Part shown: positions 3,184 through 63,580 of the stretch, one piece after another
Position numbering within the stretch: position 1 is the first letter of the stretch
How the letters are laid out: the number at the start of each line of letters is the position of its first letter
DNA from: Deroplatys truncata
Taxonomy: Eukaryota > Arthropoda > Insecta > Mantodea > Mantidae
Reading direction: 5' to 3'
NCBI GenBank assembly: GCA_030765065.1
Contig: CM060984.1
Location: 84,469,988 to 84,533,987, forward strand
DNA: 64,000 bases
Translations under genes and position numbers: made by a program
The notes under the pieces: generated by a model
What the model saw: only the letters and a program-made list of their open reading frames with translations
Told to the model about the DNA's origin: nothing
The model's database searches: none

Positions 3184-3186
<3 letters not shown>
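2226..3186. other. No gene recognised
   Basis: Mostly unique AT-rich sequence. The consensus CRE palindrome TGACGTCA occurs at about 2662, but no promoter context is visible. Near 2992-3030 the text AGAACCCCAGCTCTGCTTGC resembles a short motif at 21298, possibly a shared old repeat end. Confidence 0.4.

Positions 3187-3234
<48 letters not shown>
3187..3234. repeat. (AT)n microsatellite at the 3' tail of a LINE
   Basis: About 24 AT units directly abut the 3' end of the minus-strand LINE. Microsatellite tails are common at LINE 3' ends, so this is probably the expanded tail of the retrotransposon. Confidence 0.9.
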
Positions 3235-3236
<2 letters not shown>

Positions 3237-4126: not shown

Positions 4127-4667
4127 ACCCAACTTTCCAAGAAACTGATTTTCAAAAACAGAAAATCGAGTCCCACCTGATGAAAAGTTAAAAATTTTAA
4201 ACTTTTAAATACGTCATATTATTCCTCAGATATTCTCCTTTACAATCTAATATTACGTTTTTGTAAAACATTAAAATTGTTTATGAAAGAAAATAGGTAA
4301 TAAAGTATGTAACACTAAAAGTCAATGATGTCTTAAATAATTAAAACTCTAAATCCAAAAATACTTGACACTAAGATAAGGCTCTTTATATCTCTTCATC
4401 TAATTTCAAAGGCTGTGTGCTGAAAATTTGAAACAAATTGTACGAAAATTGGATCACGAGGAACATTCTAAAGTGGCGAAAATATAAGAACGCAAAATTA
4501 TAAGACATAAAATGTTAAAATTACAGGTGCTATTTGTACTGATCTGTACACGTTCATTTAAATGGCTAAAAAGATAAACCGCAATTGCATCCTGATTTTG
4601 CAATGTTTGAGGATTTTTTCCATTAATATTTAAAAACTCCTTTTTATTTGGTTTTTCCCCCCTTTTC
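4127..4667. other. No gene recognised
   Basis: AT-rich flank between the LINE truncation point and the next AB repeat. No ORF, RNA gene or known repeat was recognised. Confidence 0.4.
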
Positions 4668-5480
4668 CTTCTCTACTACGTGCTAGTAAGTAGAGGAAAC
4701 TTGATAAGAGAGAAGAAATATTTTACAGGAAATACATGTTTTAAGACTCCCAAAATAAAAAAGCACTTTTAGAGTTGTTGTTGTTGTGTGTGTGTGTGTG
4801 TGTGTGTTTCAACAGCATAACTCAAAAACGAAAAGTCTGATATACACCAACCTTGGTATTTAAGTTCAGGGTCTTCCAAGGATGTGACAAGAAGATTTGC
4901 AAGAAAACTCCCCCAACCCCAATCTACCCTTTACGAGAAAAATTTTTTCTTACGTTTTAATTTTCTAAAAAATTTGTTCTAACGACGTTGATTAACATAC
5001 TATATGTTTAAGATATTTGCATGGCAAAATGTATATCTCGAATTTTCGAGAACACATTACAAAGTATTCTCTATTCTAAGCGACTTTCGTATAATTGGTA
5101 AACTCTAATTGTAAGATATACACAAAATCTTACTACGCAAAAAATGTAGATCCTTTTAAAGCATACAATTTATGTCCAAAGAATTGTTTGTGGAGTTAAC
5201 CATGTCCGAGACATTCTTGTTATGGGTTTGAAATACTAATACTTTTGTCTAGTGGAAATTTTCTCGTGGTCATGCACAGAGCATGAAGCTTCAAAGCCAT
5301 CGCACAGTGACACGCGTTTTAAAAATCTGACTGTCGCTTTACCTACTGCATCCTCCTGGTACTACGAGTGTAAATCTGTAAGTAAGGTTTATCTTGATTA
5401 ACAAGAAGTCGATAGAAGCAGCAGCTTTGTTTGTAGAAGACTGAATAGAGGAAGTCATGTGAATGCAGCACATCAAGCTT
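4668..5480 (-). mobile_element. AB repeat, old full-length A1B1 copy, reverse orientation
   Basis: Read on the plus strand it starts with the reversed 3' end (CTTCTCTACTACGTGCTAGTAAG). It runs through the reversed B module with a GT microsatellite at 4786-4807 and ends with the reversed A terminus (GTCATGTGAATGCAGCACATC). All landmark blocks of the B module are present with many substitutions: AACAGCATAACTCAAAAACG, CTTGGTATTTAAGTTCAG and GTAGATCCTTTTAAAG. It is one of the most complete old copies. Confidence 0.85.
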
Positions 5481-5561
5481 TATTTTCTTTCTTTTTATCC
5501 ACATATTTTAGAAAATTTAGTATGAGTTCCCTTACTAACATTACAGCATAAGTATCAACAT

Positions 5562-5845
5562 TATCTCCGTGGACTAGAGGTACCGTGCTAGCCTCTGGTT
5601 CCCAAGGTCGCGTGTTCAAACCCGGCGGAGGGCGATAGATTTTTTCGGGCGTAAAAATCCTTAGCACGGCTTCCTTCGGAAGGGAAGTAAAGCCCCGTGT
5701 GTAGATTTTACGGCACGTAAAAGAACCTCAAGCCTGATAAAGAGGCCTCTGAGCAAAATTACCGATCTTTCACGCCCAATATAGAATGGGACGCTAAAAC
5801 CCATAGTAGTTAAAGAGCGTCCATAAATAAAACTCAATTTCATTT
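5562..5845 (+). mobile_element. SINE A, full-length copy with tRNA-like head
   Basis: The head resembles a pol III promoter, with a box-A-like GTGGACTAGAGG near 5569 and a box-B-like GTTCAAACC at 5614-5622. The body reads CTTCCTTCGGAAGGGAAGTAA ... GGCACGTAAAAGAACCTC ... TTTCACGCCCAATAT ... GAGCGTCCATAAATAAAAC. The body recurs at 13996 (plus) and 21557 (minus), which defines a family. No protein is encoded; such elements move using LINE machinery. The tail is AT-rich rather than pure poly(A). Confidence 0.82.
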
Positions 5846-6529
5846 CATTGACATCACTATGATCGAGCAGTCAGCATTTACGGCCAGTCAGCTTTACATC
5901 TCTGCGATCCAGGAATCGATTCTCCGCTTTCTACAACTAATATCACTGCCTATCCTGAAGGTCTGAATATGGGTTTGAACGGAATATTTCTTCCTAATTT
6001 TAAGTTCACGCATAACAGTTTGTATCTGTCATACTATTTATTTATTGTAAACAAATCAAGTTGTGTTATTTTTATAGTGTTTAACGCCCCTTAAGTGGGA
6101 AGGAAGTGTTTCAGGCCTAAGCTTAGGGTACCTCTCCGACATTTGCCAGATATGAGGACTGAGGACTCAAAAGCCTCAGTGGGAGGGCGGTTCTGGCGTG
6201 ATTTCAGCCGCGAATTTACCGTTCATGAGTCTAATAAGCCTTAACGACCACAATCATCGGTGTCAGCAAAGCTCTGCATGCGTAATCGGATAGCTAAAAT
6301 AAATATTGAAATTGAATAGCTTTTTCTCAAATTTGAAATTTTGATGCTGTAATTGTGTGTTTTCCAACAAAACCATTCATGCAATCACATTGCATTTTGC
6401 TCCATATCGATGATATTACACTCTTCCGCTTACCAATTGTAAATACAATATTAATTTATATCCGAAAACTATGTATTTGTGAATATTATAATCCAAAAAC
6501 TAAAATTCAGTAGAATTCCTCATACTTCA
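5846..6529. other. Mostly unrecognised; possible degraded SINE at about 6070-6310
   Basis: From about 6070 to 6310 the base composition is higher in GC, with TAGTGTTTAACGCCCCTTAAG near the start and an AAATAAATATTGAAATTGAAT tail. This has the look of a degraded SINE, but I found no second copy in the window. The rest is unremarkable. Confidence 0.3.
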
Positions 6530-6650
6530 TCAAGCATGTTTAAATAATGTGACAAGACGATTTTCAAGAAATGTGAAATTATCTTCATTCTGAACGAATT
6601 CTGTATAACTTGTAACCCATAAGAAATAAATGAAAACTTACAGCAGGAAA
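6530..6650 (-). mobile_element. AB repeat, short old B-module fragment, reverse orientation
   Basis: About 120 bp align to the reversed B module: ATGTTTAAATA, then a diverged middle, then TTCATTCTGAACGAATTCTG and CTTGTAACCCATAAGA. Flanking parts of the module are not recognisable. Confidence 0.5.
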
Positions 6651-7029
6651 AATACAGAGCTGTTTGAAAGATACAAATTATGTCAAACGACGTTGACATC
6701 AGTCGATTTCGAAGTATACTTCTCATCTCTAAGGTTTCCAGGTGAGGATGGCATGTGGCATCTATAAAACATGTACGCTGTTCTTTGTTTTCCCGCATGG
6801 ATTTATTAATAACAATAACAAAGTGACTTACGATATGCGAAAAGTTGCGTTTTGTTTTCCGTATCATGCATGCAACCAAGTTCATATTGACCGATTTTGG
6901 ATCATTTCTGTGAAAAAGATAGCGTACAAAGATTACCTTTTATAGGAGAAATGTTACGCAGCACAGATTCTAATGTGACTTATTTTAATTAAGCGTACCC
7001 TAATTTAAGTGATTAATCAGAAAAATAAA

Positions 7030-7425
7030 AATCTGACGTGTTGCATTCACTTGAGTTTATCTGCTCACAAAGTATTCTTACAAAAGCTCACACTTCTATC
7101 TACTTCTTGTTAATACGAAATAATCTAGGTTGCAAATTTTGAACTTTGCTAAGCGTTACGTAGCGGATATGTTTTATAGTTTGCGATTCCCCCACCCTTT
7201 CTTCTCATTCCATCGCAAGAGCTTGACACCACGAATAAACATTTGGATGTTGTTTCATTTTGAAAGCTTCTTGCTTAATTTTAAAAAATTCCAAAAGTAT
7301 ACGGTAATAACTTAGCGAGAATAAAATAATCACATTTTATATGGATAGTATAGGTAATATGCAATGAATATATGTGAATATCCCACTGGTAGAGTCGTAC
7401 GAATGCATCACATCAGACTTTTTTC
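7030..7425. mobile_element. Two diverged AB 5' termini facing each other
   Basis: A forward A terminus (AATCTGACGTGTTGCATTCAC) begins near 7030 and continues about 90 bp. A reversed terminus (GCATCACATCAGACTTTTTTC) ends near 7425. The middle is unrecognisable. This is either two old truncated copies or a derivative with A ends on both sides. A TTTC microsatellite follows at about 7418-7452. Confidence 0.45.
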
Positions 7426-10159
7426 TTTCTTTCTTTACTTCTTTCTTTCTTCTAGAAATTCTACTCTCTTTTAGCAAATAACATTCAATGGAAGCGTTCA
7501 ACAGTTTTCTTCAGACTGCGTTTTACTGTGTCCCAAATAGGTAATATTCAAGACAGATCCAGCCAAAGCAAGGCATTGAATCACAACGGAATACGTGCTG
7601 ATAGGTTGATACAATTTTGATATTGCATAAAATGTAGCAAAACTGAAAGGTTCCAGAAGCCCGACAGAAAATAAGAACCCAATGCGGTTAATTTAACAGA
7701 CTAAGCTCCGGAACGGGTTAATGAGTTTGGTCACGTGACTGCCTGTCCAGTGGGTGGCGCGCGCATCGCTTGAGCAATAAACCGTACACTTGTTACATAA
7801 GAGTGCATACTGCTAACTAAGACTGCCGCCTTCTTTTTATAAAGCTTATTAAACTCTGCTCCCCGTAAAAAGGAAATAGATTTTTCATTTGCTAGTTTCC
7901 CTAAAAACCCATTACGATTAGATGTTTTTGGACATAGTATAAATGCATATCATAGAAGTTGTTCTTAGAATTGATAAAGCAATATCAAAGTATCAAACAG
8001 AACATTCCACTGACGCTGAAGATGTCCGTCCACATTCCGGTCATCATTTTATTCATTCGTTTCATTGTAGTTAAGATGCCAAGCATTTGAGGAGAAATAA
8101 ATAAAACTGCGCAAATCATCCAAGGCTACAGGAGATTAGAATGGAACGAACATTCAGTTCTGGTTATTTATAACTTTGGAATATTGACCAAATAATATTT
8201 GCAATTTAAAAACAGCAGTTATAAACTAAATGAATTGCAAAACAGTATAACTTAAAAATATACACGGTCAAACTAAAGTCATGGGTTTTGAAGAAAAACT
8301 TCCAAAAAGAATAAAGATAGTAGTAGGCATTAAAATTATTGAGCAGTTCTTCAGTTTCAAAAACTGGGATGTATAATAGAGGTCTGCACTTCCATGAAAA
8401 CAACCGACTGTACCGACCGTCAATGATAGCTTGTTACGTTCGACCGTCGAAATGAATAATCAGAAGATTGCATACCTATCAGGCCCAACTTCTTTGTTCC
8501 TTTTTTCTCTACCCGAAGCACTTCTCTTGACCAAGAGCTCACGGTCGACTAGGATCCCGCGGTTAACCGCGGCTATTCGGAGTAATGGCGGTGCTTTGGA
8601 CTGTATAGGTGAATGAAACAACTGTTACGTTTAGGTACCTCTTTACTCACTCAGTAGCAAATGCGTAGCCTTATTTAGCCAGTTTCCATTACTTTTGACT
8701 TTTTTGGAGGTGGTCAATTTATATATTTCCTTATCCAGCCTGAGTGAGCCTGCACGCCGTAAAATGCGGCTATACGAGTACTGACAGATGACAACAGACC
8801 AGTTCCGTTCCCACTCTCAAACCGTATCTGCTTTTGTAAACAAAGCTGTCGGTCTTTTGTCTCTAGTATCTTGGAAATGTTATTGAAATAATGATAATTT
8901 ACGGTCATAAATGTAGTTTAATATAAGAATGGCATTAAAGTATTGCGGCGTCCATTTTATTCATAACTAACATAATAGACACATTCCACAAAAGAAGTAT
9001 TAATTTTTGTTCTGCAGAATCCTTCCATAGTAATTTCTATTACAACTAATACTACCCAAGTGAAGTTTGTGCCTCAGGTTTTTCTATTACATTTTCCTTG
9101 TTTGTTTCCATTTATACACATAGACAAATATTAATAAATATATAAGAATTTGCTATATTATGCTCATGGGCTTCATTTTTAAAATTATTCTAAAGTCGCA
9201 TACAATGTATTCTATCTTTATTTTTAGTACGTAATGCTGTAGTATTACCAGCACTCAGTAGTATCAAACGCTATAATCGTATAAATACTATATAATACGT
9301 TTATTTAAAATCTTGCAAATACATACTGTATTACTGGGAACAATAATATTTCATATAATTACGGCGTTTAACAACGAACATTTTTATTTTAAAACCAATC
9401 CTTTCCGCGTCTCCTAATTTAAAACTTTGTTCAAGCCTATTTATTTTTTTTACTTCAACGCAGTAAAATGATACGAAAAATTTGCTCAGATTTTGAATTC
9501 CCTAAGTATTTTTATTATAGATATGATTTCTGTAAATTTATTTTTTATAGAAACAACAATTTTTTAAAGCGTATTCAAAACTACAACCCGTCCGATATAA
9601 CCTAGCAATTAATAGGCTTAAAACTGCAAAAATAAATAAATAATTACACTGTAGAACGTCGGATTATCCAGATAATAGTTTACGTATGAGGGATAAATTG
9701 GGTATGTAATAAACAAGGTTATTGGGTGTATAATAATGATATAATTAAATGAATCGCTGCAGTTTACTAAAAGAATGCGACCGTTATATAATTCATCACT
9801 CCCAAATTTTGACATCTCCAATAAAATCTCTAGTTTTACTGCGCGTATCTGCTCTTGAATGCAGTTTTGTATTAGTGTCTGGTTCCACTGATATAGACTC
9901 GCCGGTATTACAACTGGGACGCACCAGAGAGCAGCAGCATCACGGTTGCATGTGAACGACCAAGACTTCGCCGTAACCGACTGGCTGACTGCTCGGCCGC
10001 CGTACTGGCAACCGAAGGTGGCCCGATAAGTCACCGTCGGTCTTTTTCTTGAGAACAAGACCTCTGATTTATAACCTCAAATTTAAGAAAAAGTAATATA
10101 GAAAATAAATAAAATAAATATATAAGGCGAAATGGGAGTATTAAATGGACATTATTAAA
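7426..10159. other. Long AT-rich stretch with no recognised gene
   Basis: No protein family, RNA gene or window-wide repeat was recognised. A GC-rich island at about 9895-10045 gives the start of a 146-codon minus-strand frame (9618-10058). Its composition changes abruptly and it shows no domain, so I do not call it a gene. The palindrome cluster at 8535-8572 is listed separately. Confidence 0.4.
8535..8572. other. Cluster of six-base palindromes with a perfect 16-bp palindrome
   Basis: Within 38 bp there are GAGCTC, GTCGAC, GGATCC, CCGCGG, GTTAAC and CCGCGG. The last three merge into the perfect palindrome CCGCGGTTAACCGCGG (8557-8572). The surrounding 100 bp are GC-richer than the neighbourhood. 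The function is unknown. Confidence 0.6.
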
Positions 10160-10545
10160 TAAAATCCTCAGAAAGACGATTTTAAAATTTTATAAAATGA
10201 TAGCCCATCCAATCATGTTTTAGGGAGCTGAAACTTGGAGGTTAACAAATAAATAAGGGATGTTGAAATAGCAGACATGAAATTACTAAGACCTCTGGCT
10301 GATATTCGCTTCTGGGCCATCAGAGAAACAATGACATTCGGGAAGAACTAAATGTAACCAACATTTCAGAAGTAATAGAACAATACAGAAAACAGTAGAA
10401 TGCACCATGGATACTCGTGATATTCCAGTCAGCATATACAAGTACAAGTCAAAGGAAGAAGAGAGGTCACAAAATGGAGAGAATCTTGGAAGGACTGACT
10501 TTGTGAAGTCGAAACGGGGCAAAAGGCCCAAACCGTGTAGTATTT
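10160..10545 (+). pseudogene. Degraded LINE fragment, C-terminal region of a reverse transcriptase ORF
   Basis: The plus strand, with shifts and stops, reads ILKFYKMIAHPIMF, then GAETWRLTNK, then VEIADMKLLRPLADIRF, then NNDIREELNVTNISEVIEQYRK. This order (FYK...P...GAETW...K, MK.LR, R.NDIREELN, EQYRK) is the familiar C-terminal pattern of insect RTE/R1-like LINEs. At least two stops and two frame changes show that it is dead. A GATGATGATG run follows, perhaps the 3' tail. Confidence 0.75.
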
Positions 10546-15884: not shown

Positions 15885-15890
15885 TTTTTA

Positions 15891-16757
15891 CTTTCTCTAC
15901 TACGTATAGTAAGTATAGGAAGTATTGTATTCCACCCAAAAATTCGATACCGAGATTTCACCGGAAATACATGTTTTGAGACCCCCTGAATCCAAAAAAG
16001 CATTTTTGGAAACATGTCCGTGTGTGTGTCTGTGTGTGTGTGTGTGTGTGTGTGTCTGTGTGTAGCATAACTCAGAAACGAACAGTCGGATAAACACCAA
16101 TCTTGGTATTTAGGTTCAGTATCTTCCAGAGATGCGACACGAAGGTTTTCAAGAAAATTTCCCCACCCCAGACTACCCTTTACATGGAACATTTTCGAAA
16201 ATTTTAATTTTCTCAAAAATGGCTCTAACGATTTTGATTAAAATATCATATGTTTAAGATATTGTCATGAGAAATGAAATGTATATCTCAAATTTTCTGG
16301 GACTGTCTCCAAAAGTATTCTTCATTGTGAACGACTTTTGTATAACTGGTAAACCATAAGAGATACACAAAATTTTACTACACAAAAAATGTAGATCGCG
16401 TTAAAATACACAATTTATGTCATATGCATTTCTTTTGTTGAGTGAACCGTTTTCGAGATATTGCTTGTTATTCCCTTAAATTTTCCAATACTTACACTTT
16501 TTGTCAAATTCGTTATTCATTTTTTTTATGTCCTGGACATGCAAAGAGAATGGAATGCGCCACATAGCAACCAGCGTTAAAATATTTGACTATCGCTTAA
16601 AACCTACCATATTCCCCTTGCATCTACAAGAAAATTACAAATAAGATTGACATCTCGATTTCTCGATTAACATGAAGCATATGCAGAATAAGCGTTTGTA
16701 AAACTAGTTTGTACAAGAGTAGAGAAAGTCATGTGAGTGTAACACATCAGATTTTTT
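15891..16757 (-). mobile_element. AB repeat, young A1B1 copy, reverse orientation
   Basis: Starts with the reversed 3' end (CTTTCTCTACTACGTATAG) and ends with the reversed 5' end (GTAACACATCAGA). The B part belongs to subtype beta1 (no CCCATT insertion at the junction) and the A part to alpha1 (GGAATGCGCCACATAGCAACC). The microsatellite is at 16017-16063. A frame of about 100 codons crosses the B module, but its reading frame after the microsatellite differs between copies. Confidence 0.93.
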
Positions 16758-17789: not shown

Positions 17790-19532
17790 TCTGATGTGTT
17801 ACACTCACATGACTTTCTCTACTCATGTACAAACTATTTATACAAACGCTTATTCTCCATCTACTTCATGTTAATCGAGATAAACATTTGCAGACTCTAT
17901 CTTATTGCTAAGTTTCTTGTAGATGTAAGGGGAATATATATTTACAAGGGCAATATAGAAATGCAGTAGCCTTTAAGCACATACAAATCTCTTAATAGCT
18001 GGTTGCTAGGTGCAGCACCATTCCCTTTCCCACAGATTATAACTCCTTGCATATCCAAGACAAAAAAAATCTGATGTGTTACACTCGCATGACTTTCTCT
18101 ACTCTTGTAGAAACTATTTTACAAACGCTTATTCTCCATATGCTTCATGTCAATCTTATTGCTAATTTTCTTGTAGATGCAAGGGGAATATGGTAGGTTT
18201 TAAGCGATAGTCAAATATTTTAAGTGCTGGTTGCTATGTGGCGCATTTCATTCTCTTTGCATGTCTGGGACATAAAAAAAATGAATAACGCATTTGAGAA
18301 AAAGTATAAGTATTGGTAAATTTAAGGGAATAACAAGCCATATCTCAAAAACCGTTCACTCAACAAAAACAATGTATATGACATAAATTGTGTATTTTAA
18401 CGCGATCTACATTTTTTGTGTAGTAAAATTTTGTCTATCTCTTATGGTTCACCAGTTATGCAAAAGTCGTTCACAATGAAGAACACTTTTGGAGACATTC
18501 CCAGAAAATTCGAGATATACATTTCATTTCTCATGACAATATCTTAAACATATGATATTTTAATCAAAATCGTTAGCCATTTTTGAAAAAATTAAAATTT
18601 TCGAAAATGTTCCATGTAAAGGGTAATCTGGGGTGGGGGGATTTTCTTGTAAACCTTCGTGTCGCATCTCTGGAAGATACTGAACCTAAATACCAAGTTT
18701 GGTGTTTATCCGACTGTTCGTTTCTGAGTTATGCTGTTCACAGACACACACACAGACACAGACACACACGGACATGTTTCCAAAAAAAAATTTTTTTTGA
18801 TTCAGGGAGTCTCTCAACATGTATTTCCGGTGAAATCTCGGTATCGAATTTTTGGGTGGAATACAATACTTCCCCTACTTACTATACGAAGTAGAGAAAG
18901 TAAAAATGAATAACGAATTCCCATTTGAGAAAATAAGTATTGAAAAATTTAAGGGAATAACAAGCAATATCTCGAAAATGGTTCACTCAACAAAAAAAAT
19001 CTATATGACATAAATTGTGTATTTTAACGCGATCTACATTTTTTGTGTAGTAAACTTTTGTCTATCTCTTATGGTTTACCAGTTATGCAAAAGTCGTTTA
19101 CAATGAAGAATACTTTTGGAGACATTCCCAGAAAATTCGAGATATACATTTCATTGGTCATGACAATATCTTAAACATATGATATTTTAATCAAAATCGT
19201 TAGAGCCATTTTTGAGAAAATTAAAATTTTCGAAAAATCTTCCATGTAAAGGGTAGTCTGGGGTGGGGGATTTTCTTGAAAACCTTCGTGTCGCATCCTT
19301 GGAAGATACTGAACTTAAATACCAAGTTTGGTGTTTATCGAACTCTTCGTTTCTGAGTTATGCTGATCACAGACAGACACACAGACACACAGACACACAC
19401 ACGAACATGTTTCCAAAAATGCTTTTTTTGGATGCAGGGAGTCTCAAAACATGTATTTCCGGTGAAATCTCGGTATTGAATTTTTGGGTGGAATACAATA
19501 CTTCCCCTACTTACTATACGCAGTAGAGAAAG
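17790..19532 (+). mobile_element. AB repeat array, A-A-B-B (nested pair of young units)
   Basis: Four modules in order: A of subtype alpha2 (17790-18069, with GCTGGTTGCTAGGTGCAGC), A of subtype alpha1 (18070-18280, with GCTGGTTGCTATGTGGCGC), B of subtype beta1 (18281-18900, starting ATGAATAACGCATTTGAG) and B of subtype beta2 (18906-19532, starting ATGAATAACGAATTCCCATT). In single units alpha2 goes with beta2 (37282) and alpha1 with beta1 (49745). The order alpha2-alpha1-beta1-beta2 is therefore a whole alpha1-beta1 unit sitting in the A/B junction of an alpha2-beta2 unit. The inner unit is bounded by an A-run before TCTGATG and by TAAAAATG after GAGAAAG. Confidence 0.92.
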
Positions 19533-20281
19533 TAAACAATCACAGTTACGTGACAACGCGAGTGGAGCCACGTCCTGCTCTTCTTTGATAAAAATGTAAA
19601 CATTTGACTAGCGAAATACATGTTGGTAATTGCAAATGACGCTAACAACTGCGGACAGATGACAGTCGCACCCAGTCCCTGCGTTACGTAAAATGTTGTC
19701 ACATGAATGAGGGCGGTCACACACCTGAGCAAGTACCAGCACAATAACAAACCAACCCACGTGGAAAGCAATGTGTACTCCACATTCTTCGTATTCAGAG
19801 ACCCCTCCACCGCCCTTTTCCTGTCCCAAGGCTTTCTGTCCCTGCTCTTCATACCGCAATTATTGTCTTGGACGACATTCCTTCGAGCACTGGACTTTCC
19901 TAGAAGAAATAAAAAATTCTCCCTTGTGTATTTACGTCATAGGAGACTACCTAAAGGACGTTCCAACCTCAGAAGTGAGCTAAAAATATTAATTTGGAAT
20001 TTACACCTCAATGTACCACACAATTAACAGAATCACTTCATTGTTTTGTAATTTCAAGCATTGACCACACGTAGAGTGTTACTTACAGTGCGGTTACACA
20101 GTCTTAACGCATCTAAATACAGTATAACCCCGTTAATACTTTATTAGAACATTAACCTAAACGTAAAACAGGTGCGACAGTGCTGTATTCCGCAAATAAT
20201 GCAATATGAGGAAGACAATAATTGGTAGTGTATTCTATTGTTCAGTAGCTACAGGAGCATGTATACATTGTGAGTTTTACA
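19533..20281. other. No gene recognised; mixed-composition unique sequence
   Basis: Several overlapping frames of 70-112 codons on both strands cover 19514-20027. They conflict, have no domains and show no splice-bounded structure I would trust. No repeat family was recognised. Confidence 0.4.
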
Positions 20282-25692: not shown

Positions 25693-26527
25693 TCTGATGT
25701 GTTACACTCACGTGCCTTTCTCTGCTCTTGTACAAACTATTTTTACAAACGCTTATTCTCCATCTACTTCATGTTAATCGAGATATCGAGATGTTAATCT
25801 TATTGTTAATATTCTTGTAGGCGCAAGGGGAATATGGTAGACTTTAAGCGATGGTCTAATCGTTTAAGAGCTGGTTGCTATGTGGAGCATTCCATTCTCT
25901 TTGTATGTCCAGGACATAAAAAGAAACTAGTAAGAAATTCCCATTTGAGAAAAAGTATAAGTATTGAAAAATTCAAACAAATAACAAAGAATATCTCGGA
26001 AATGGTTCACTCGACAAAAACAGTGTATATGACATAAATTATGTGTTTTGACGAGATCTACATTTTTTGTGTAGAAAAATGTATGTCTCTTACAGTTTAC
26101 TAGTTATGGAAAAGCCACTCAGAAAGAAGAGGAGCTTTGGGAAGATTCCCAGAAAATTCAAGATAAACATTTTATTTCTCATGAAAATATTTTAAATATA
26201 TGATACTTTAATCAAAATCGTTAGAGCTATTTTTTGAGAAATCAAAATTTTCCAAAAATTTTCCATGTAAAGGAAGTATGTGTGGGTAGATTTTCTTGAA
26301 AATCTTCCTGTCGCACCTTTGAGACATAGTGAACCTAAATACCAAGTTTAGTATTTATCCGAATTTTAGTTTTTGAGTTATGCTGTTCACACACACACAC
26401 AAACATTTTTCTAAAAATGCATTTTTTTATTCAAGAGACATGAAAACATGTATTTCCGGTGAAATCTCGTATCGAAGTTATGTTGGAATGCAATACTACC
26501 CTTACTTACTATACGTAACAGAGAAAG
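25693..26527 (+). mobile_element. AB repeat, A1B1 copy, fairly young
   Basis: Complete from TCTGATGTGTTACACTCACG to TACTATACGTAACAGAGAAAG. The A module is alpha1-like. The B start combines features of both beta subtypes (CCATTTGAGAAAAAGTATAAG), so it may be close to an ancestor of the two. The microsatellite is short (26388-26402). No target duplication was found. Confidence 0.88.
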
Positions 26528-26597
26528 TAAACATGTAACGTGTTTCTCTAGTCACTATTAGTTTCTGCACACTATTTTTAGAACGCTTATTTTTCTA

Positions 26598-37281: not shown

Positions 37282-38187
37282 TCTGATGTGTTACACGCAC
37301 ATGACTTTCTCTACTCTTGTACAAACTATTTTTACAAACGCTTATTCTCCATCTACTTCATGTTAATCGAGATAAACATTTGCAGACTCTATCTTATTGC
37401 TAATTTTCTTGTAGATGTAAGGGGAAAATATATTTACAAGGGCAATATAGAAAAACAGTAGCCTTTGAGCACATACATATCTCTTAATAGCTGGTTGCTA
37501 GGTGCAGCACCATTCCCTTTGCCACAGATTATAACTCTTTGCATATCCAAGACAAAAAAATGAATAACGAATTCCCATTTAAGAAAATAAGTATTGAAAA
37601 ATTTAAGGTAATAACAAGCAATATCTCGAAAATGGTTCACTCAACAACAAAAATGTATATGACATAAAATGTGTATTTTAACGCGATCTACATCTTTTGT
37701 ATAATAAAATTTTGTCTATCTCTTATGGTTTACCAGTTATGCAAAAGTCCTTCACAATGAAGAATACTTCTGGAGACATTCCCAGAAAATTCAAGATATA
37801 CATTTTATTTGTCATGAAAATATCTTAAACATATAATATTTTAATCAAAATCGTTAGCCATTTTTGAGAAAATTAAAATTTTCGAAAAATGTTCCATGTA
37901 AAGAGTAGTCTGGGATGGGGGGATTTTCTTGAAAACCTTCGTGTCGCATCTCTGGAAGATACTGAACCTAAATACCAAGTTTGGTGTTTATCCGACTGTT
38001 CGTTTCTGAGTTATGCTGTTCACAGACAGACAGACAGGCAGGCACACAGACACACATGGACATGTTTCCAAAAATGCTTTTTTTGGATTCAGGGGATCTC
38101 AAAACATGTATTTCCGGTGAAATCTCGATATCGAATTTTTGGGTGGAATACAATACTTCCCCTACTTACTATACGTAGTAGAGAAAG
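37282..38187 (+). mobile_element. AB repeat, young A1B1 copy, alpha2-beta2 type; good reference copy
   Basis: A module 37282-37557, B module from 37560. It shows all hallmarks: a 5' hairpin ATGTG-N7-CACGC-like near the start, ACTTTCTCTACT at 37304-37315, the matching AGTAGAGAAAGT at 38177-38188, and a 3' hairpin TACTA-TACG-TAGTA (38167-38180) seven bases before the end. The junction GACAAAAAAATGAATAACG is the site that carries whole inserted units in the arrays. The microsatellite is CAGA/CA/GGCA type (38022-38058). Confidence 0.93.
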
Positions 38188-38344
38188 TAAAAATACAAAA
38201 GAATTTCAAAACTGAAATGTTGGTGTATGCTAATGATACCTACAGCGTTTATTTGAAAATGCTTCATAGTTTAAGAGAAGTCCATGAAAGCATCAGTGTA
38301 TCAACGCTGTTCTGGTCGAATTACTTGTTAAATCAAGATTCAAT

Positions 38345-39034: not shown

Positions 39035-39156
39035 TATCAACCAACTGCCAGTCAATTCAGGAATTTAATGAGCCGGCGTGTTGCCGGTTGGTTAGAGTAA
39101 CCGGACGAAAACCGGAATATCCGTGGTTCAAATCCTGACTATGGCATGGCATTTTT
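39035..39156 (+). mobile_element. SINE E, tRNA-like 3' part
   Basis: GGTTGGTTAGAGTAACCGGACG, with a B box GTGGTTCAAATCC (about 39122-39134) and CTATGGCATGGCA, aligns with the copy at 41847-42133 from GAATTTAATG onwards. Upstream of about 39035 no similarity is seen. The AB array begins directly after it. The D and T arms are too broken for a working tRNA. Confidence 0.65.
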
Positions 39157-39924
39157 ACTTTCTCTACTACGTATAGTAAGTAGGGGAAGTATTGTATTCC
39201 ACCCAAAAATTCGATACCGAGATTTAACCGGAAATACATGTTTTGAGACCCCCTGAATCCAAAAAAAAGCATTTTTGGATACATGTCCGTGTGTGTGTGT
39301 CTGTGTGTCTTCTGTCTGTGAACAGCATAACTCAGAAACGAACAGTCAGATAAACACCAAACTTGGTATTTAGGTTCAGTATCCTCCAGGGATGCAACAC
39401 GAAGGTATTCAAGAAAATCCCCCACCCCAGATTACCCATTACATGGAACATTTTTCGTAAATTTTAATTTTCTCAAAAATGGCTCTAACAATTTTGATTA
39501 AAATATCATATGTTTAAGATATTTTTATGGCAAATAAAATGTATATCCTGAATTTCCTGGGAATGTCTACAAAAGTATTCTTCATTGTGAACGACTTCTG
39601 CATAACTGGTAAACCATAAGAGATAGACAAAATTGTACTACACAAAAAATGTAGATCGCGTTGAAATACACAATTTATGTCATATACATTTTTTTGGTTG
39701 AGTGAACCATTTTCGAGATATTGCTTGTTATTCCCTTAAATTTTTCAATACTTATTTTCTCAAATGGGAAATCGTTTATAATTTTTTACTTTCTCTACTA
39801 CGTATAGTAAGTAGGGGAAGTATTGCATTCCACCCAAAAATTCGATACCGAGATTTCAGCGGAAATACATGTTTTGAGACCTCCTGAATCCAAAAAAAGC
39901 ATTTTTGGAAACATGTCCGTGTGT

Positions 39925-39958
<34 letters not shown>

Positions 39959-41828
39959 CTGTGTGTCTGTGTGTCTGTGAACAGCATAACTCAGAAACGA
40001 ACAGTCGGATAAACACCAAACTTGGTATTTAGGTTCAGTATCTTCCAGGGATGCGACACGAAGGTGTTCAGGAAAATCCCCCCACCCAAGACTACCCTTT
40101 ACATGGAACATTTTTCGCAAATTTTAATTTTCTCAAAAATGGCTCTAACGATTTTGATGAAAATATCATATGTTTAAGATAATGTCATGAGAAATGAAAT
40201 GTATATCTCGAATTTTCTGGGAATGTCTCCAAAAGTATTCTTCACTGTGAACGACTTTTGCATAACTGGTAAACCGTAAGAGATAGACAGAATTTTACTA
40301 CACAAAAAATGTAGATCGCGTTAAAATATACAACTTATGTCATATACATTTCTTTTGTTGAGTGAACCGTTTTCGAGATATTGCTTGTTATTTCCTTAAA
40401 TATTTCAATACTTATACTTTTTCTCAAATTCGTTATTCATTTTTACTTTCTCTACTATGTATAGTAAGTAGGGGAAGTATTGCATTCCACCCAAAAATTC
40501 GATACCGAGATTTCACCGGAAATACATGTTTTGAGAATCACTGAATCTAAAAAAAGCATTTTTGGAAACATGTCCGTGTGTGTGTCTGTGTGTCTGTCTG
40601 TCTGTGTGTCTGTGTGTCTGTGAACAGCATAACTCAAAAACGAACAGTCGGATAAACACCAAACTTGGTATTTAGGTTCAGTATCTTCCAGAGATGCGAC
40701 ACGAAGGTTTTCAAGAAAATCCCCCCACCCCAGACTACCCTTTACATGGAACATTTTTCGAAAATTTTAATTTTCTCAAAAACGGCTCTAACGATTTTGA
40801 TTAAAATATCATATGTTTAAGATATTGTCATGACAAATAAAATGTATATCTCGAATTTTCTGGGAATGTCTCCAAAAATATTCTTAATTGTGAACGACTT
40901 TTGCATAACTGGTAAACCATAAGAGATAGACAAAATTTTACTACACAAAAAATGTAGATCGCGTTAAAATACACAACTTATGTCATATACGTTTCTTTTG
41001 TTGAGTGAACCGTTTTCGAGATATTGCTTGTTATTTCCTTAAATTTTCCAATACTTATACTTTTTCTCAAATTCGTTATTCATTTTTTTTGTCCTGAACA
41101 TGCAAAGAGAATGGAATTCGCCACATAGCAACCAGCGTTAAAATATTTGACTATCGCTTAAAAGCTACCATATTCCCCTTGCATCTACAAGAAAATTACC
41201 AATAAGATTGACATCTCGATATCTCGATTAACATGAAGCATATGGAGAATAGGCGTTTGTAAAATTAGATTGTACAAGAGTAGAGAAAGTTATGTGAGTG
41301 TATCACATCAGATTTTTTATGTCCTGGACATGCAAAGAGAATGGAATGCGCCACATAGCAACCAGCGTTAAAATATTTGACTTTCGCTTAAAACCTACCA
41401 TATTCCCCTTGCATCTACATGAAAATTACCAATAAGATTGACATCTCGATATCTCGATTAACATGAAGCATATGGAGAATAGGCGTTTGTAAAAATAGAT
41501 TGTACAAGAGTAGAGAAAGTCATGTGAGTGTAACACATCAGATTTTTTTTGTCTTGGATATGCAAAGAGTATTAATCTATGGGAAAGAGAATGGTGCTGC
41601 ACCTAGCAACCAGCTATTAAGAGATATGTATGTGCTTAAAGGCTACTGTTTTTCTATATTGCCCTTGTAAATATATATTCCCCTTACATCTACAAGAAAA
41701 TTAGCAATAAGACAGACTCTGCAAATGTTTATCTCGATTAACATGAAGTACATGGAGAATAAGCGTTTGTATAAATAGTTTGTACAAGAGTAGAGAAAGT
41801 CATGTGAGTGTAACACATCAGATTTTTT
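39157..41828 (-). mobile_element. AB repeat array, reversed B-B-B-A-A-A (triple nested unit)
   Basis: Plus-strand order: B of beta2 type (39157-39787), B beta1 (39788-40444), B beta1 (40445-41083), A alpha1 (41091-41318), A alpha1 (41321-41550), A alpha2 (41551-41828). Reversed, this is alpha2-alpha1-alpha1-beta1-beta1-beta2, perfectly symmetrical by subtype. beta2 is told from beta1 by the CCCATT insertion at its start; alpha2 has GGTGCAGCACC and a CATATCCAAGAC end. Three units inserted one inside the other at the same A/B junction explain this. Simple unequal crossing-over would give A-B-A-B. Confidence 0.92.
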
Positions 41829-42151
41829 AGTCTAATTCTACCTTTCATGCCGTGTCCCATACACGGCTTGTGTGAAAGAGCAATTAATTACCACTGATTG
41901 ACCAATGGTTGGTTAAACTATGACGCCCAGACATTATACTTACAACATTGGGGTAGGTATATCATCTTAAAATGAATTTGAGATCTCCTTGTGGTTTACA
42001 GGAAAAAATGCGAGTCAGTTGGAGAATTTAATGTGGTGCCGCCATGTTGCCATGGTAGCCCAGTTGGTTAGAACAACCGGACGGAAACCGGAAGATCCGT
42101 GGTTCAAATCCCGGCTATGGCATTAAATATTTCAGTCTAATTCTACCTTTC
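41829..42151 (+). mobile_element. SINE E, complete copy with 18-bp direct repeats
   Basis: AGTCTAATTCTACCTTTC occurs at 41829-41846 and 42134-42151, and the 287-bp element lies between. At its right end GCCATGGTAGCCCAGTTGG (about 42048) to CTATGGC shows a tRNA-like acceptor pairing of seven bases with one G-T pair, an A box and a B box GTGGTTCAAATCC. D and T arms do not pair well. The long exact direct repeat is typical for retroposition. It is unusual that the tRNA-like part is at the right end although its sense is plus. Confidence 0.72.
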
Positions 42152-47995: not shown

Positions 47996-48000
47996 AATTA

Positions 48001-48840
48001 CTTTCTCCACTACGTAGAGTAAGTAGGGGAAGTTTGTATTCCACCCAAAAATTCGATACCAAGATTTCACCGGAAATACATGTTTTGAGACCCCCTGAAT
48101 CCAAAAAAAGCATTTTTAGAAACATGTCCGTGTGTGTATCTGTGTGTCTGTGAACAGCATAACTCAGAAACAAACAGTCGGATAAACACCAAACTTGGTA
48201 TTTAGGTTCAGTATCTTCCACAGATGCGACACGAAGGCTTTCAAGAAAATCCCCCCGCCCCAGATTACCCTTTACATGGAACATTTTTCGAAAATTTTAA
48301 TTTTCTCAGAAATTGCTCTAACCATTTTGATTAAAATATCATATATTTAAGATACTTTCATGACAAATAAAATGCATATCTAGAATTTTCTGGAAATGTC
48401 TCCAAAAGTATTCTTCATTGTGAACGACTTTTCATAACTGGTAAACCATAAGAGATAGACAAAATTTTACTACACAAAAAATGTAGATCGCGTTAATATA
48501 CACAACTTATGTCATATACATTTTTTGTTGAGTGAACCATTTTCGAGATATTGGTTGTTATTCCCCTTAATTTTCCAATGCTTATACTTTTCTCAAATTC
48601 GTTGTTCAGTTTTTTGTCATGGACATGCAAAGAGAATGGAATGCGCCACATAGCAACCAACGCTTAAAAGATTTGACTATCGCTAAAAGCCTACCATATT
48701 CCCCTTGCATCTACAAGAAAATTACCAATAAGATTGACATCTCGATATCTCGATTAACATGAAACATATGGAGAATAAGTCTTTGTAAAAATATTTGTAC
48801 AAGAGTAGAGAAAGTCATGTGAGTGTAACACATCAGATTT
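48001..48840 (-). mobile_element. AB repeat, young A1B1 copy, reverse orientation
   Basis: Complete from CTTTCTCCACTACGTAGAG to GTAACACATCAGA, alpha1-beta1 type. The microsatellite is short (48130-48152). The 3' hairpin is changed to a TACTCTACGTAGTG form. A 96-codon frame crosses the B module. Confidence 0.92.
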
Positions 48841-49611: not shown

Positions 49612-50670
49612 TTTTACTTTCTCTCCCACTTACATAGTACATAGAGAAGATATTGCAATCCACTCAAAAATTCGATAGAGATTTCAGCGGAAATACATGC
49701 TTTGAGGCATCTGAATACAAAAAAACACACATTTTTAAAAAAAATCTGATACATTACACTCACATGACATTCTCTACTCTTCTACAAACTATTTTTACAA
49801 ACGCTTATTCTCCATATGCTTCATGTTAATCGAGATATCGAGATGTCAATCTTATTGCTTATTTTCTTGTAGATGCAAGGGGAATATGGTAGGTTTTAAG
49901 CGATAGTCAAATTTTTAAGCGCTGGTTGCTATGTGGCGCATTGCAATCTCTTTGCATGTCCAGGACATAAAAAAAATGAATAACGAATTTGAGAAAAAGT
50001 ATAATTATTGGAAAATTTAAGGGAATAACAAGCAATATCTCGAAAACGGTTCACTCAACAACAAAAAATGTATATCACAGAAAATGTGTATTTTAACGCG
50101 ATCTACATTTTTTGTGTAGTACAATTTTGTCTATCTCTTATGGTTTACCAGTTATGCAAAAGTCGTTCACAATGAAGAATACTTTTGGAGACATTCCCAG
50201 AAAATTCAAGATATACATTTCATTTCTCCTGAGAATATCTTAAACATATGATATTTTAATCAAAATCGTTAGAGCCATTTTTGAGAAAATTAAAATTTTC
50301 GAAAAATGTTCCATGTAAAGGGTAGTCTGGGATGGGGGATTTTCTTGAAAACCTTCGTGTCGCATCTCTGGAAGATACTGAACCTAAATACCAAGTTTGG
50401 TGTTTATCCGACTGTTCGTTTCTGAGTTATGCTGTTCACAGACAGACAGACACACACACCGACATGTTTCCAAAATGCTTTTTTTGGATTCAGGGGGTCT
50501 CAAAACATGTATTTTCGGTGAAATCTCGGTATCGAATTTTTGGGTGGAATGCAATACTTCCCCTACTTACTATACGTAGTAGAGAAAGTAATAAGTTTTA
50601 GTAAAATAGTTTGTATACCCACTAATAATCGATAGAAGATAGAGAAAGTATTGTGAACTTATCACATCAC
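49612..50670 (-). mobile_element. AB repeat, old reverse copy interrupted by a young forward copy
   Basis: The left part (49612-49738) is a reversed B end: CTTTCTCTCCCACTTACATAG to GAATACAAAAAAACACAC. The right part (50589-50670) is a reversed A end: AATAGTTTGTATACCCACTAA to AACTTATCACATCACG. Most of the host between these parts is missing, so the host was already deleted or the insertion removed it. Confidence 0.65.
49745..50588 (+). mobile_element. AB repeat, young A1B1 copy, alpha1-beta1 type, inside an older copy
   Basis: The A start is TCTGATACATTACACTCAC; the B module begins ATGAATAACGAATTTGAG and ends TACTATACGTAGTAGAGAAAG. This is the reference for the alpha1-beta1 pairing. The 5' flank is an A-run. 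No exact target duplication was found, perhaps because the host is rearranged. Confidence 0.93.
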
Positions 50671-53839: not shown

Positions 53840-54946
53840 GAAAAATATATAATCATACATCAGGAATGTTTCGAAAACAGCTAACGCAACACAAAAGTAT
53901 TTGATGCAAATTGTACAATACTTTAATGAGCTCTAATTTTATTCTACAACAAGTTTTTTCTTTGTATGTTATGGTTGTACAAAATAATACAACATTCAAT
54001 TAAAATGAAGGCGACTTCACTGGCTATTCACAGAAAATTCAAGATCTATACATTTTATTTCTTGCGTCAATATGCGAAAGATGTTATATTTTAACTGAAC
54101 TCATAAGAACCGTTTTTGATAAAATAAAAAATCTGATGTATTACACTCTCATGACTTTCTTTACTCTTTTACAATCTAGTTTTACAAACTCTTATTCTCC
54201 ATCTATTTCACATTAATCGAGATAAACATTTGCAGAAACGATCTTTTGACATGCAAAGAGAATTACATTTTACACATAGCGACCAGTTCTAAAAATATTT
54301 GACTTTCGCTTAAGGCGTACTATGTTCCCTTTGTTTTGTATTTGCAAGGGCAATATAGAAATACAGTAGCCTTTAAGCATCGACATATCTCTTAATAGCT
54401 GGTTGCTAGGTGCAGCACCATTATCTTTGCCACAGATTAATGCTCTTTGCATATCCAAGACAAAAAAATGAATAACGAATTCCCATTTGAGAAAATAAGT
54501 ATTGAAAAATTTAAGCGAATAACAAGTAATATCTCGAAAATGGTTCACTCAACAAAAACAATGTATATGACATAAATTGTGTATTTTAACGCGATCTACA
54601 TTTTTTGTGTAGTAAAATTTTGTCTATCTCTTATGGTTTACCAGTTATGCAAAAGTCGTTCACAATAAAGAATACTTTTGGAGACATTCCCAGAAAATTC
54701 AAGATATACATTTTATTTGTCATAAAAATATCTTAAACATATGATATTTTAATCAAAATCGTTAGAGCCATTTTTGAGAAAATTAAAATTTTCGAAAAAT
54801 CTTCCATGTAAAGGGTACTCTGGGGTGGGGGGATTTTCTTGAAAACCTTCGTGTCGCATCCTTGGAAGATACTAAACCTAAATACCAAGTTTGGTGTTTA
54901 TCCGACTGTTCGTTTCTGAGTTATGCTGTTCACAGACAGACAGACA

Positions 54947-54991
<45 letters not shown>

Positions 54992-55190
54992 AGACAGACA
55001 TGTTTCCAAAAATGCTTTTTTTGGATTCATGGGGGTCTCAAAACATGTATTTCCGGTGAAATCTCGGTATCTACTACTATACGTAGTAGAGAAAGTAAAA
55101 TAATGAACATCTACTCACGCGAAGTGTTTCGTGAAAATCTTCGCGTCGCAACCTCAAAACATATTTTCCGGTGAAATATCGATACCGGAT
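53840..55190 (+). mobile_element. AB repeat, old forward copy interrupted by a young one
   Basis: Host sequence is at 53840-54127 (GAGCTCTAATTTTATTCTAC, ACAGAAAATTCAAGATC, GAACCGTTTTTGATAAAATAA) and continues at 55104 (TGAACATCTACTCACG, GAAAATCTTCGCGTCGCAACC, TTTTCCGGTGAAATATCG). TAAAATAA is present on both sides of the young insert (54120-54127 and 55096-55103). The host is of the old subfamily seen at 12640. Confidence 0.75.
54128..55095 (+). mobile_element. AB repeat, young A1B1 copy with an 8-bp target duplication and a partly inverted A module
   Basis: TAAAATAA flanks the element on both sides, the best target duplication for this family. The B part is beta2 (CCCATT present) and the second half of A is alpha2. 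The middle of A (about 54244-54350) instead contains a reversed alpha-type piece (CATGCAAAGAGAATTAC ... ACATAGCGACCAG). The CA microsatellite is long (about 54949-54985). The last part of B is shortened just before the terminal hairpin. Confidence 0.9.
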
Positions 55191-57377: not shown

Positions 57378-57529
57378 CTCATATCAATATATTAAGCATA
57401 TGACACTTTAATCCTTTTTATCAGAAAATAAAAAGCAACGAAACACTTTCCATGTAAAGGTTAGTTTGGGGTAGGAGGATGTTCCTGAAAATCTTCGTGT
57501 CGTATCGCATCCGTGTTCAAATGTTTGCT
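56500..57529 (+). mobile_element. Series of old forward AB fragments (A, A, partial B, partial B)
   Basis: A of the CTCCACCAATGACAAATTCGC subfamily (56510-56700) is followed by A of the CTACCCACTATAGC subfamily (56702-56930). After an insert, a B piece with a 46-bp CA microsatellite follows (about 57119-57280), then a second B piece with an AT run (57282-57529). Again two A parts precede two B parts, but truncation makes nesting uncertain. Confidence 0.6.
56935..57118. mobile_element. Unclassified insert between AB fragments
   Basis: About 180 bp of higher GC that does not match AB modules, including CTCGGGCTTCAAGCCAGGAG and CATCTCTCCCATCTTCAGG. The sequence type resembles 3' parts of arthropod retroelements, but I could not confirm any family. 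No second copy is in the window. Confidence 0.35.
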
Positions 57530-57666
57530 TTCTCTACTACGTATAGTAAGTAGGGGAAGTATTGTATTCCACCCAAAAATTCGATACCGAGATTTCACCG
57601 GAAATACATGTTTTGAGACCCCCTGAATCCAAAAAGAAGCATTTTTGGAAACATGTCCATGTGTGT

Positions 57667-57711
<45 letters not shown>

Positions 57712-58394
57712 CAGCATAACTTAGAAACGAACAGTCGGATAAACACCAAACTTGATATTTAGGTTCAGTATCTTCCAGAGATGCGACACGAAGGTTTTCA
57801 AGAAAATCCCCCCACCCCAGACTACTCTTTACATGGAACATTTTTCGAAAATTTTAATTTTCTCAAAAATGGTCTAACGATTTTGATTAAAATATCATAT
57901 GTTTAAGATATTGTCATGACAAATGAAATGTATACCTCGAATTTTCTGGGAATGTCTCCAAAAGTGTTCATTGGAACGACTTTTGCATAACTGGTAAACC
58001 ATAAGAGATAGACAAAAGTTTACTGCACAAAAAATGTAGATCGCGTTAAAATACACAATTTATGTCATATAGATTCTTTTTGTAGAGTGGACCATTTTCG
58101 AGATATTGCTTGTTATTCCTTTAAATTTTCCAATACTTAATACTTTTTCTCAAATTCGTTATTCATTTTTTTATGTCCTGGACATGCAAAGAGAATGGAA
58201 TGCGCCACATAGCAACCAACGCTTAAAAGATTTGACTATTGCTTATAACCTACCGTATTCCCCTTGCATCTACAAGAAAATTAGCAATAAGATTGACATC
58301 TCGATTAACATGTAGCATATGGAGAATAAACGTTTGTAAAAATAGGTTGTACAAGAGTAGAGCAAGTCATGTGAGTGTAGCACATCAGATTTTT
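57530..58394 (-). mobile_element. AB repeat, young A1B1 copy, reverse orientation, inside an older forward copy
   Basis: Complete from CTTTCTCTACTACGTATAG to GTAGCACATCAGA, alpha1-beta1 type. The GT microsatellite at 57659-57710 is the longest among the young copies. The host B module breaks off at 57529 and resumes at about 58398. Confidence 0.92.
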
Positions 58395-61966: not shown

Positions 61967-63580
61967 TACACACAGAATGTAACAAAAATGTACGACACAA
62001 ATTGCAGAACACATTCCTCACTCATAGACGAAGAAATTATGTTATATGAACATGGGCCCCGAAACGCTTTGTTTCCATGTTACAGCCCATTTTCTCCAAC
62101 TCATTAATCATGGGAAACACACACGAACAGAACGTTAGAATCATGGGGAGCATGCACTCTTGGTTATGTCTGGTTACGTTGTCATTATCGTAGGTGCACC
62201 GCCAGTGTTTTGTTTTACATGTCCCTGTTGCCATACGACTTACGTCATTGCTTGTTTACAGGTAACATCAACTGTTCCAGTGAGTAGTACGGCCTTGGCA
62301 AGCACAAGGTTACTACCTACTAGTAGAGTTGATCACAGACTTGGCTCATGCAATAGCAGCGTGCACAAATGTACAGATGGCAGCTGCCCATTTAATGTAT
62401 GGATTAGCAGACGGCAATGGCGCTTACGCTCAACGTTTGTACCGGGAGAGATTTCCAGGACGAAGGTGCCCCGACAAGAAAACCTTTGAAGCTATTGATC
62501 GTCGTCTTAGGGAACATGAGGCATTACAGCCTGATACTCGCGACCGGAGGAGGCCTAGAAGGACGAGGACACCGCAACGGAAGGCGGCAATTCTTCAAAC
62601 AATTGACGACGACCCTAGCGTCAGTACAAGACAAATAGCTGCAACAATGAATGTTACCCACACGACTGTCTGGCGAGTATTACACGCTGCATCCATACCA
62701 TTTACAGCGTGTGCAGGCACTATCAGCAGCTGATTTTCCTGCACGGGTACGCTACTGCGAATGGTTTATGCAACAAAGTGTCAATCCTAATTTTAGTGCT
62801 GTGAACGGTGCTGTTAACAAATGAGGCGTCGTTTCAACGAGAACAGATTGTAAATTATCACATTGGGATGTATGGGCTGACGTCAATCCTCACGCAACTG
62901 TTGAAGCAAGTCATCAACAAAGATTTCCTGTCAATGTTTAGGCCGGCATTGTTGGTGACTGTTTGGTAGAGCCTCACGTTCTTCCACCCAGGCTCAACGG
63001 ACAAAGTTACCATAATTTCGTTGAGAATGTTCTATCTGATCTGTTAGCAGATGTGCCTTTAGCTGTGCGACAAAACATGTGCTTTATGCATGACGGAGAT
63101 CTCCTCATTTTAGTGTTAATATTTTATTAACAGATTCGGTGACAGATGGATAGATAGAGGTGTACGAATTGTCTGGCCTCCACGCTCCCCGGACCTAAAC
63201 CCGCTGGAAGTTTATTTGTGAGGGATTTTAAAGCTCTTGTATATCGAACCCCAGCACCAGATGTTCAAAGCTCCGTGCCCGTATTATGGAAGGCTGCGAA
63301 ACCATACGCAATACTCCAGGGATACACCAGCGCATCCAGGATTCACTACGACGGCAGATTGATGCATGTATCAATGCTCAAGGAGGGCATATTGAACATC
63401 TCCTATGAGAAAGAGTTGCATGTAGTATGCTGATACGTTCTATTCTTATATGTTTCCCATGATTAATGAGTTGGAGAAAATGAGTTCTAACATGGAAACA
63501 AAGCGTTTACATACCCATGTTCATATGACATGTGTCCTGCAATTTGTGTTGTGCATTTTTGTTCCATTCTGTATATGTTT
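61967..63580 (+). mobile_element. Mariner-like DNA transposon with long inverted ends, inactive, inside an AB copy
   Basis: An inner arm of 55 bp (62065-62119, starting CGCTTTGTTTCCATGTTA) is matched in reverse at 63451-63505. An outer arm (61973-62014, CAGAATGTAACAAAAATGTACG...) is matched at 63530-63571. The left side has about 24 extra bases between arms. Between the arms lies the transposase remnant. The split AB copy shows the element inserted within the TATATAC stretch of a B module. The right end merges with a minisatellite, so the exact boundary is uncertain. Confidence 0.85.
62374..63430 (+). pseudogene. Tc1/mariner-superfamily transposase, broken
   Basis: The first frame (ATG at 62374) reads MAAAHLMYGLADGNGAYAQR and continues to a helix-turn-helix (VSTRQIAATMNVTHTTVWR), typical for the N-terminal domain of this insect transposase type. 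A frameshift near 62697 moves the coding to another frame (YHLQRVQAL, FPARVRYCEW). The catalytic region follows in pieces: LLTNEASF, where the first catalytic Asp appears as Asn; VWADVNPHAT; a stop replacing a conserved Trp; FMHDGD near 63085; and VWPPRSPDLNPLE near 63170-63207. At least one stop, two frameshifts and a changed catalytic residue make it inactive. Confidence 0.88.

Follow-up and report, generated by a model that had tools for sequence, protein, structure and literature searches.

How could three copies of one repeat module come to be followed by three copies of another, with the subtypes of the two series in mirrored order? The question is raised by a locus of Deroplatys truncata within the window, that is, the whole 64-kb stretch of DNA that was analysed (G000:C10:84469988-84533987, in a eukaryote assembly of 4.29 Gb). 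There, positions 39157-41822 are occupied by the array B-B-B-A-A-A, whose subtypes, assigned by diagnostic letters and best match, read beta2-beta1-beta1-alpha1-alpha1-alpha2. The array modules appear as repeats of 197-300 bp with an identity of 90-96% for most copies, which is beyond chance. The order, the coordinates and the subtypes are those given in a preliminary description of the locus, which had also placed the A modules in reverse orientation. The latter does not hold: B and A lie on the same strand and are parts of one element, and an A inverted relative to B is ruled out. The features of the array and its borders, all on the forward strand (+), are the following.

39084-39156, +: tRNA-like (SINE-like) repeat, left piece, split by the array
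39157-39190, +: 5' palindromic subterminal repeat ACTTTCTCTAC...GTAGGGGAAGT, which recurs at the start of every B of the array
39157-39785, +: B module beta2, 5' part of the outermost (oldest) element; nearest B at a distance of 0.054
39788-40442, +: B module beta1, belonging to the middle element (5' part), whose insertion site is the T run at the centre of the outer element
40445-41085, +: B module beta1, 5' part of the innermost element; six nearest B at 0.005-0.008
41090-41311, +: A module alpha1, 3' part of the innermost element, with the centre T run immediately before it
41320-41541, +: A module alpha1, 3' part of the middle element
41549-41822, +: A module alpha2, 3' part of the outermost element
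41790-41822, +: 3' end, with the inverted copy of the subterminal repeat (GTAGAGAAAGT), a weak hairpin ATGTG/CACAT and then CAGA
41823-41828, +: T run at the 3' boundary of the array, the left counterpart being T5 at 39152-39156
41829-41846, +: right piece of the SINE-like repeat split by the array (AGTCTAATTCTACCTTTC)

A second copy of the SINE-like repeat is found at 42049-42151, and its tRNA-like unit (42049-42122) matches Rfam tRNA with 40.6 bits.

What, then, are the two modules? B forms the 5' part and A the 3' part of a single non-autonomous Helentron (HINE) of about 870 bp, and a central run of about seven T separates the two. The 5' end of the element (ACTTTCTCTACTACGTATAGTAAGTAGGGGAAGT, with variants) is preceded by a T run, while its 3' end (GTAGAGAAAGTCATGTGAGTGTAACACATCAGA, with variants) is followed by a T-rich stretch. 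The features of Helentrons and HINEs are present, such as the subterminal inverted repeats (ACTTTCTCTAC / GTAGAGAAAGT), where the first 11 letters of the element and GTAGAGAAAGT are inverted copies of each other and the 5' repeat is palindromic itself, the GT/GTCT microsatellite within B, and the T-rich insertion site with T runs at the boundaries. As DNA, the 5' repeat folds into a hairpin with a z of -2.67 (5 of 200 shuffles fold equally well); the ATGTG/CACAT stem at the 3' end forms a weak hairpin that folds no better than shuffles (z -0.36). Among 48 distinct 5' flanks outside the element itself, 27 end in exactly T5, and T occupies each of the last two positions in 98%. No longer motif upstream of the T run was found in the 27 exact-T5 flanks, where the base before T5 is A in 15, C in 7 and G in 5, against a background of A 190, C 83 and G 81. 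As for a target site duplication, the left T5 may belong to the element or to the target, on the right the T run of the host centre is commonly retained in full, and the flanks of the element show T runs only, in which a duplicated T is indistinguishable. Two other classes were considered and ruled out. A canonical Helitron would have 5' TC, 3' CTRR and insertion between A and T, whereas the ends here are (T5)ACTTTC and CATCAGA(Tn); in a terminal-inverted-repeat MITE both repeats would be terminal and flanked by a target site duplication of fixed length, whereas here the 5' repeat starts at the end and the 3' repeat stops 22 bp before the CAGA end.

A possible mover of such an element is present in the same genome. 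The search of the genome with the Pfam profile Helitron_like_N gave at least 152 matches (150 of 291 candidates were scored), and open frames of at least 2,000 aa hold at least 18 of them among the matches listed. One autonomous copy of 10.4 kb (L081/L082) was read end to end: the exact 20-mer of the 5' end lies at position 128, a frame of 2,324 aa spans 2630-9601, and the element's 3' end is found, with two mismatches, at 10509. The frame matches Herpes_teg_N (an OTU-like protease region), DUF6570, Helitron_like_N, PIF1 and, at its C end, Exo_endo_phos_2, so that in this copy matching ends are combined with Rep, a PIF1 helicase and an AP-like endonuclease. Moreover, the first 124 bp of the alpha2 A are kept behind its B with 87% identity. 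Given this remnant and the matching ends, B-A can be read as a Helentron of this kind that has undergone deletion, and it would be this Helentron, encoding Rep, the helicase and the C-terminal endonuclease, that moves B-A.

The array was probably built as follows. Insertions go to T runs in one orientation, most often leaving five T before the element. A copy landing in the centre of another splits the host into its B and its A and places its own B and A between them, and repeated central insertion yields BBAA and then BBBAAA, with the subtypes matched like brackets. Nested self-insertion as the origin of the BB..AA order is well supported. In balanced arrays, the subtypes of the bracket-matched enclosing pairs match in all 19 cases (11 of type 1 and 8 of type 2; Fisher p 1.3e-5), where the chains were those called balanced by script and the loci ascertained by AB junctions as well as the window were included, locus L001 being omitted as a repeat of the window. 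By contrast, matching B and A by rank (k-th with k-th) leaves 14 of 42 typed pairs discordant. Within arrays, adjacent B and A have concordant subtypes in 82 of 85 typed pairs and disagree in the other three, and the two-module chains comprise 14 of type 1-1, six of type 2-2 and one that is discordant. The two successive self-insertions at the B/A junction that had been proposed for the locus are supported.

The letters at the junctions are in line with this account. In the commonest junction of the fetched loci, the host centre GTTATTCATTTTTTTATGTCC is split into a left side, GTTATTCATTTTT followed by ACTTTC, and a right side, CACATCAGA followed by TTTTTTTATGTCC; that is, T5 stands before the insert, while the whole T run of the host centre and the first letters of A are retained behind CAGA. 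Exactly T5 precedes ACTTTC in 84 of the 100 BB places listed with the gapped pattern, and the BB loci used for the junction letters were mostly selected by a T5 pattern.

Nesting also predicts an order of ages. The enclosing copy is more diverged from its subtype consensus in 20 of 27 comparisons (Wilcoxon p=0.0016), which come from 21 arrays, nine of them from unbalanced chains, and which share arrays; among comparisons of equal subtype the share is 16 of 22 (p 0.006). For the triple array itself, the distances of B and A to their nearest relatives are 0.054/0.018 in the outer, 0.027/0.014 in the middle and 0.005/0.005 in the inner layer. The earlier claim that inner layers are the youngest therefore stands as a trend and in the order of the nearest relatives of the triple, and it fails as a rule: seven of the 27 comparisons are reversed, and divergence from the consensus (0.036 outer, 0.021 middle, 0.022 inner) leaves the two inner layers inseparable. 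As to the mirror pairing of the modules, subtype labels by themselves prove just the outermost pair, since layers 2 and 3 carry identical labels. The pairing of the third B with the first A is shown by their close relatives, 0.5-0.7% different, which for both modules lie at the same loci elsewhere, for example C1:253529518-253530403 and C10:85189692-85190537.

Does this happen throughout the genome? With exact anchors and no more than eight free letters between them, 76,452 BA, 17,846 BB, 13,656 AA and 7,319 AB junctions were counted, and the controls with reversed patterns gave 0 each; the exact 20-mer of the 5' end occurs 173,596 times. BB and AA together make 31,502 junctions by exact anchors. 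Where a B end with intact anchors has a module next to it, this is another B in about 19% (17,846/94,298), and where an A start has a module before it, this is another A in about 15% (13,656/90,108). BB outnumbers AA (17,846 vs 13,656), the global balance of B to A being derived from junction counts only. It should be noted that a pattern with a fixed T8 for AA (2,741 hits) did not fit the actual T length, and the gapped pattern was used in its place. Pairing BB with AA from the exact-match position lists was also given up as too lossy in favour of annotation by alignment: in the lists of contig C1, AA lies within 4 kb downstream for 40 of 100 BB, and BB lies upstream for 37 of 76 AA, in part since anchors with mutations escape an exact match.

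The T run at the centre of the element is used far more than expected. The one control site, a T7 run on the opposite strand of B, was counted with the same right anchor as BB and a left anchor of equal length and gave 2,965 insertions, one sixth of the number at the centre; the idea that the element carries its own favoured target is upheld to this extent. Rough extrapolation from the 49 kb of the window that are free of modules gives about 31 million T/A runs of at least five and 3.7 million of at least seven in the genome, and therefore the centre also exceeds the average T run by a wide margin. Self-insertions are present at other T runs of the element, too. The centre may be favoured by the transposition machinery, rather than by survival or the copying of composites. 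Taken as a whole, the account in which B-A is a HINE moved by a Helentron that targets T runs, with repeated self-insertion at the centre, is in our judgement highly probable. A wider reading can be formulated, in which the B/A centre would be a built-in landing pad, the Helentron machinery would recognise more than the T run, the family would home to its own copies, spare the rest of the genome and renew itself via composite elements, and the present autonomous lineage with a double 5' end would descend from such nesting. We put this forward tentatively, as a conjecture that has perhaps somewhat more against it than for it.

Alternatively, a few ready-made composites (BBA, BBAA) may have been copied as units, so that the BB junctions would reflect amplification and not repeated self-targeting. 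Composite units do move, and consequently the junction counts are not all independent events. Seven autonomous copies were fetched, six of which are readable at the 5' end (L083 begins inside the B that borders the coding part), and five of these six (L081, L084, L086, L087 and L088) carry a double 5' end of two consecutive B, while L085 has a single B. Outside L081, the four double-ended copies are 95-98% identical to it over the aligned 5' region, across the double end, and have different flanks. A further B precedes L084 and L086; L087 sits in the T7 run of a B in reversed orientation, and an old reversed B adjoins L088. Similarly, the arrays at C1:17410286 and C1:17424793 have a 5' flank in common. 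However, the junction of the autonomous double end has T4, which falls outside the exact pattern used for counting BB, and outer copies differ between arrays by a median of 0.084 compared with 0.040 for inner copies. In addition, a triple array on C13 is only 91% identical to that of the window over 2.2 kb, microsatellites included, while the innermost B and A of the two differ by 0.008 and 0.005. On this evidence, the copying of composites is an unlikely origin for the BB junctions.

Less credible is a separate multiplication of B and of A through unequal crossing-over or local tandem duplication. To score the balance of the arrays, from C1 (9.2-21.7 Mb), 23 BB arrays were taken (loci L009-L038 and L069-L078), and five were dropped, namely 13.833 and 13.842 Mb (fragments of an inverted duplicate), 17.240 Mb (nothing but B pieces), 18.178 Mb (truncated at the end of the locus) and 20.088 Mb (complex). 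Among the 18 scored, 12 have as many B as A and six do not (BABBA, BBBAA, BBA, BBBA, BBBA and BBAAA), which refutes the preliminary expectation that the two numbers are always equal. Two of the balanced arrays were counted by hand, one at 9.268 Mb, where the outer B is interrupted by about 1 kb, and one at 19.717 Mb, where alpha2 is in two pieces; that at 21.688 Mb extends to 26 nt of the locus edge. Equality is more frequent than by permutation (mean 7.2, p 0.006), and the Spearman correlation of the two counts is weak (0.30, p 0.23), the totals over the 18 arrays being 46 B vs 40 A. Some balanced arrays are mixed words, e.g., BBABAA, and not simple nests, as is expected if the T runs of A-A or B-B junctions also take inserts.

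Tandem duplication is favoured by the very existence of BBBA arrays (C1:17319694 and C1:17410286) and of BBAAA (C1:17424793), and by the neighbouring B within C1:17319694, which differ by just 0.032 and 0.023. Nevertheless, among 129 B, the inner B is nearest to its own outer neighbour in only two of 32 adjacent full-length B-B pairs, on which ground local duplication is rejected as the main cause; the scored junctions connect an element end to a T run, and the subtypes are mirrored in the 19 enclosing pairs of balanced arrays. We therefore regard it as very improbable for the arrays at large, and it may explain the unbalanced minority. Under nested self-insertion, the imbalance (BBA, BBBA, BBAAA) could have arisen from recombination between direct copies of A or B, or from transposition initiated at an outer 5' end and terminated as soon as a 3' end is reached. 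The latter route is supported by the double 5' ends of the autonomous copies.

Tandem (BA)n and (BAA)n forms are also present (L049, L050, L058 and L059). In four units at C1:19.82-19.83 Mb (L045-L048), beta2alpha2-beta1alpha1 is repeated with a period of 2,481 bp and an identical layout of modules. Near the start of the contig, G000:C1:20306-122593 holds 31 BA centres, known by position only, at a regular spacing of about 3,409 bp, where the element was probably incorporated into a long satellite. Even so, that the arrays were made by rolling-circle concatemers or missed termination, as proposed for the clustering of Helitrons through bypassed termination in the part of PMC4067079 consulted, is the least probable of all, for concatemers predict A-B-A-B and not B..BA..A, and BB and AA exceed AB more than four to one, notwithstanding the 7,319 AB junctions and the 2,481-bp repeats. 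The preliminary description had reserved the order A-B-A-B for such processes; tandem A-B arrays do exist, and they leave the nested origin of the BB..AA order unrefuted.

Other arrangements were encountered on C1. BB pairs mirrored on opposite strands, about 4-9 kb apart, occur at 13.833/13.842, 22.028/22.033 and 26.124/26.132 Mb, with 443-451 bp between neighbours; the first pair is an inverted duplication with a partly deleted B, and the other two are known by position only. At C1:17240166-17242341 (L023), several consecutive B with 119-nt partial B pieces between them form a different kind of B array.

The element class, the T-rich targeting, self-insertion and multiple termini are already known. 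The non-autonomous Helentrons HINE/DINE-1, as far as the consulted part of PMC4067079 describes them, have in common with the present element the palindromic subterminal repeats, the 3' palindrome, the internal microsatellite, the T-rich target with a variable end T, the very high copy number and the Helentron partner with an endonuclease; ordered nesting at a central T run is not described in that part, in contrast to the 31,502 junctions here. For self-inserted Helitrons of Fusarium oxysporum, it has been proposed that transposition begins at the outer 5' end and terminates at the first 3' end, resulting in multiple 5' termini (PMC5148889, consulted in part). Self-insertion and multiple 5' termini resemble the BBA arrays and the autonomous double 5' end; however, these cases are fungal and few, the duplicated 5' parts are typically under 200 bp, and neither a fixed landing site nor a bracket-like series is named in the part consulted. 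In maize, where 17.6% of helAs are reported to have multiple 5' termini, it has been proposed that transposition starts at an inner 5' end and runs through several 3' ends (PMC3288121, likewise in part). Nested insertion followed by transposition across several ends is the likeness here, but the maize elements are CTAG-ended and differently named ones nested mutually, and a common self-target is not described in that part. Ordered self-nesting at one central site on a comparable scale was not found in the portion of the open-access full-text literature consulted.

Consequently, it is the scale of the nesting and the favoured landing spot that are of interest, the class of the element being known. 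The target choice of Helentrons is usually hidden by T-rich flanks, and thousands of junctions at one known sequence constitute a natural experiment on target choice, end use and insertion order. The bracket-matched subtypes give a relative date for each layer, and the double-ended autonomous copies connect nesting to the birth of new element forms.

Further copies of the element are found in the window as follows.

15890-16751, +: single beta1-alpha1 element
17790-19533, -: nested array BBAA, outer beta2/alpha2 and inner beta1/alpha1
25693-26528, -: single element, whose B is just 79% identical to the innermost B of the triple array
37282-38188, -: single beta2-alpha2 element
48000-48837, +: single element
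49745-50589, -: single element
54132-55096, -: beta2-alpha2 element, internally rearranged
57527-58389, +: single element

Over nine loci of the window (the triple array, BBAA, six single elements and the rearranged one, which was scored as one B and one A), the number of B equals that of A, with older or shorter fragments excluded. Two open frames were also noted. The 241-aa frame at 3393-4118 has no Pfam match at E 0.01, and resembles the C end of a non-LTR reverse transcriptase. The 149-aa frame at 62284-62733, with matches to DUF4817 and a Tc3-like HTH, is probably the remnant of a DNA transposase.
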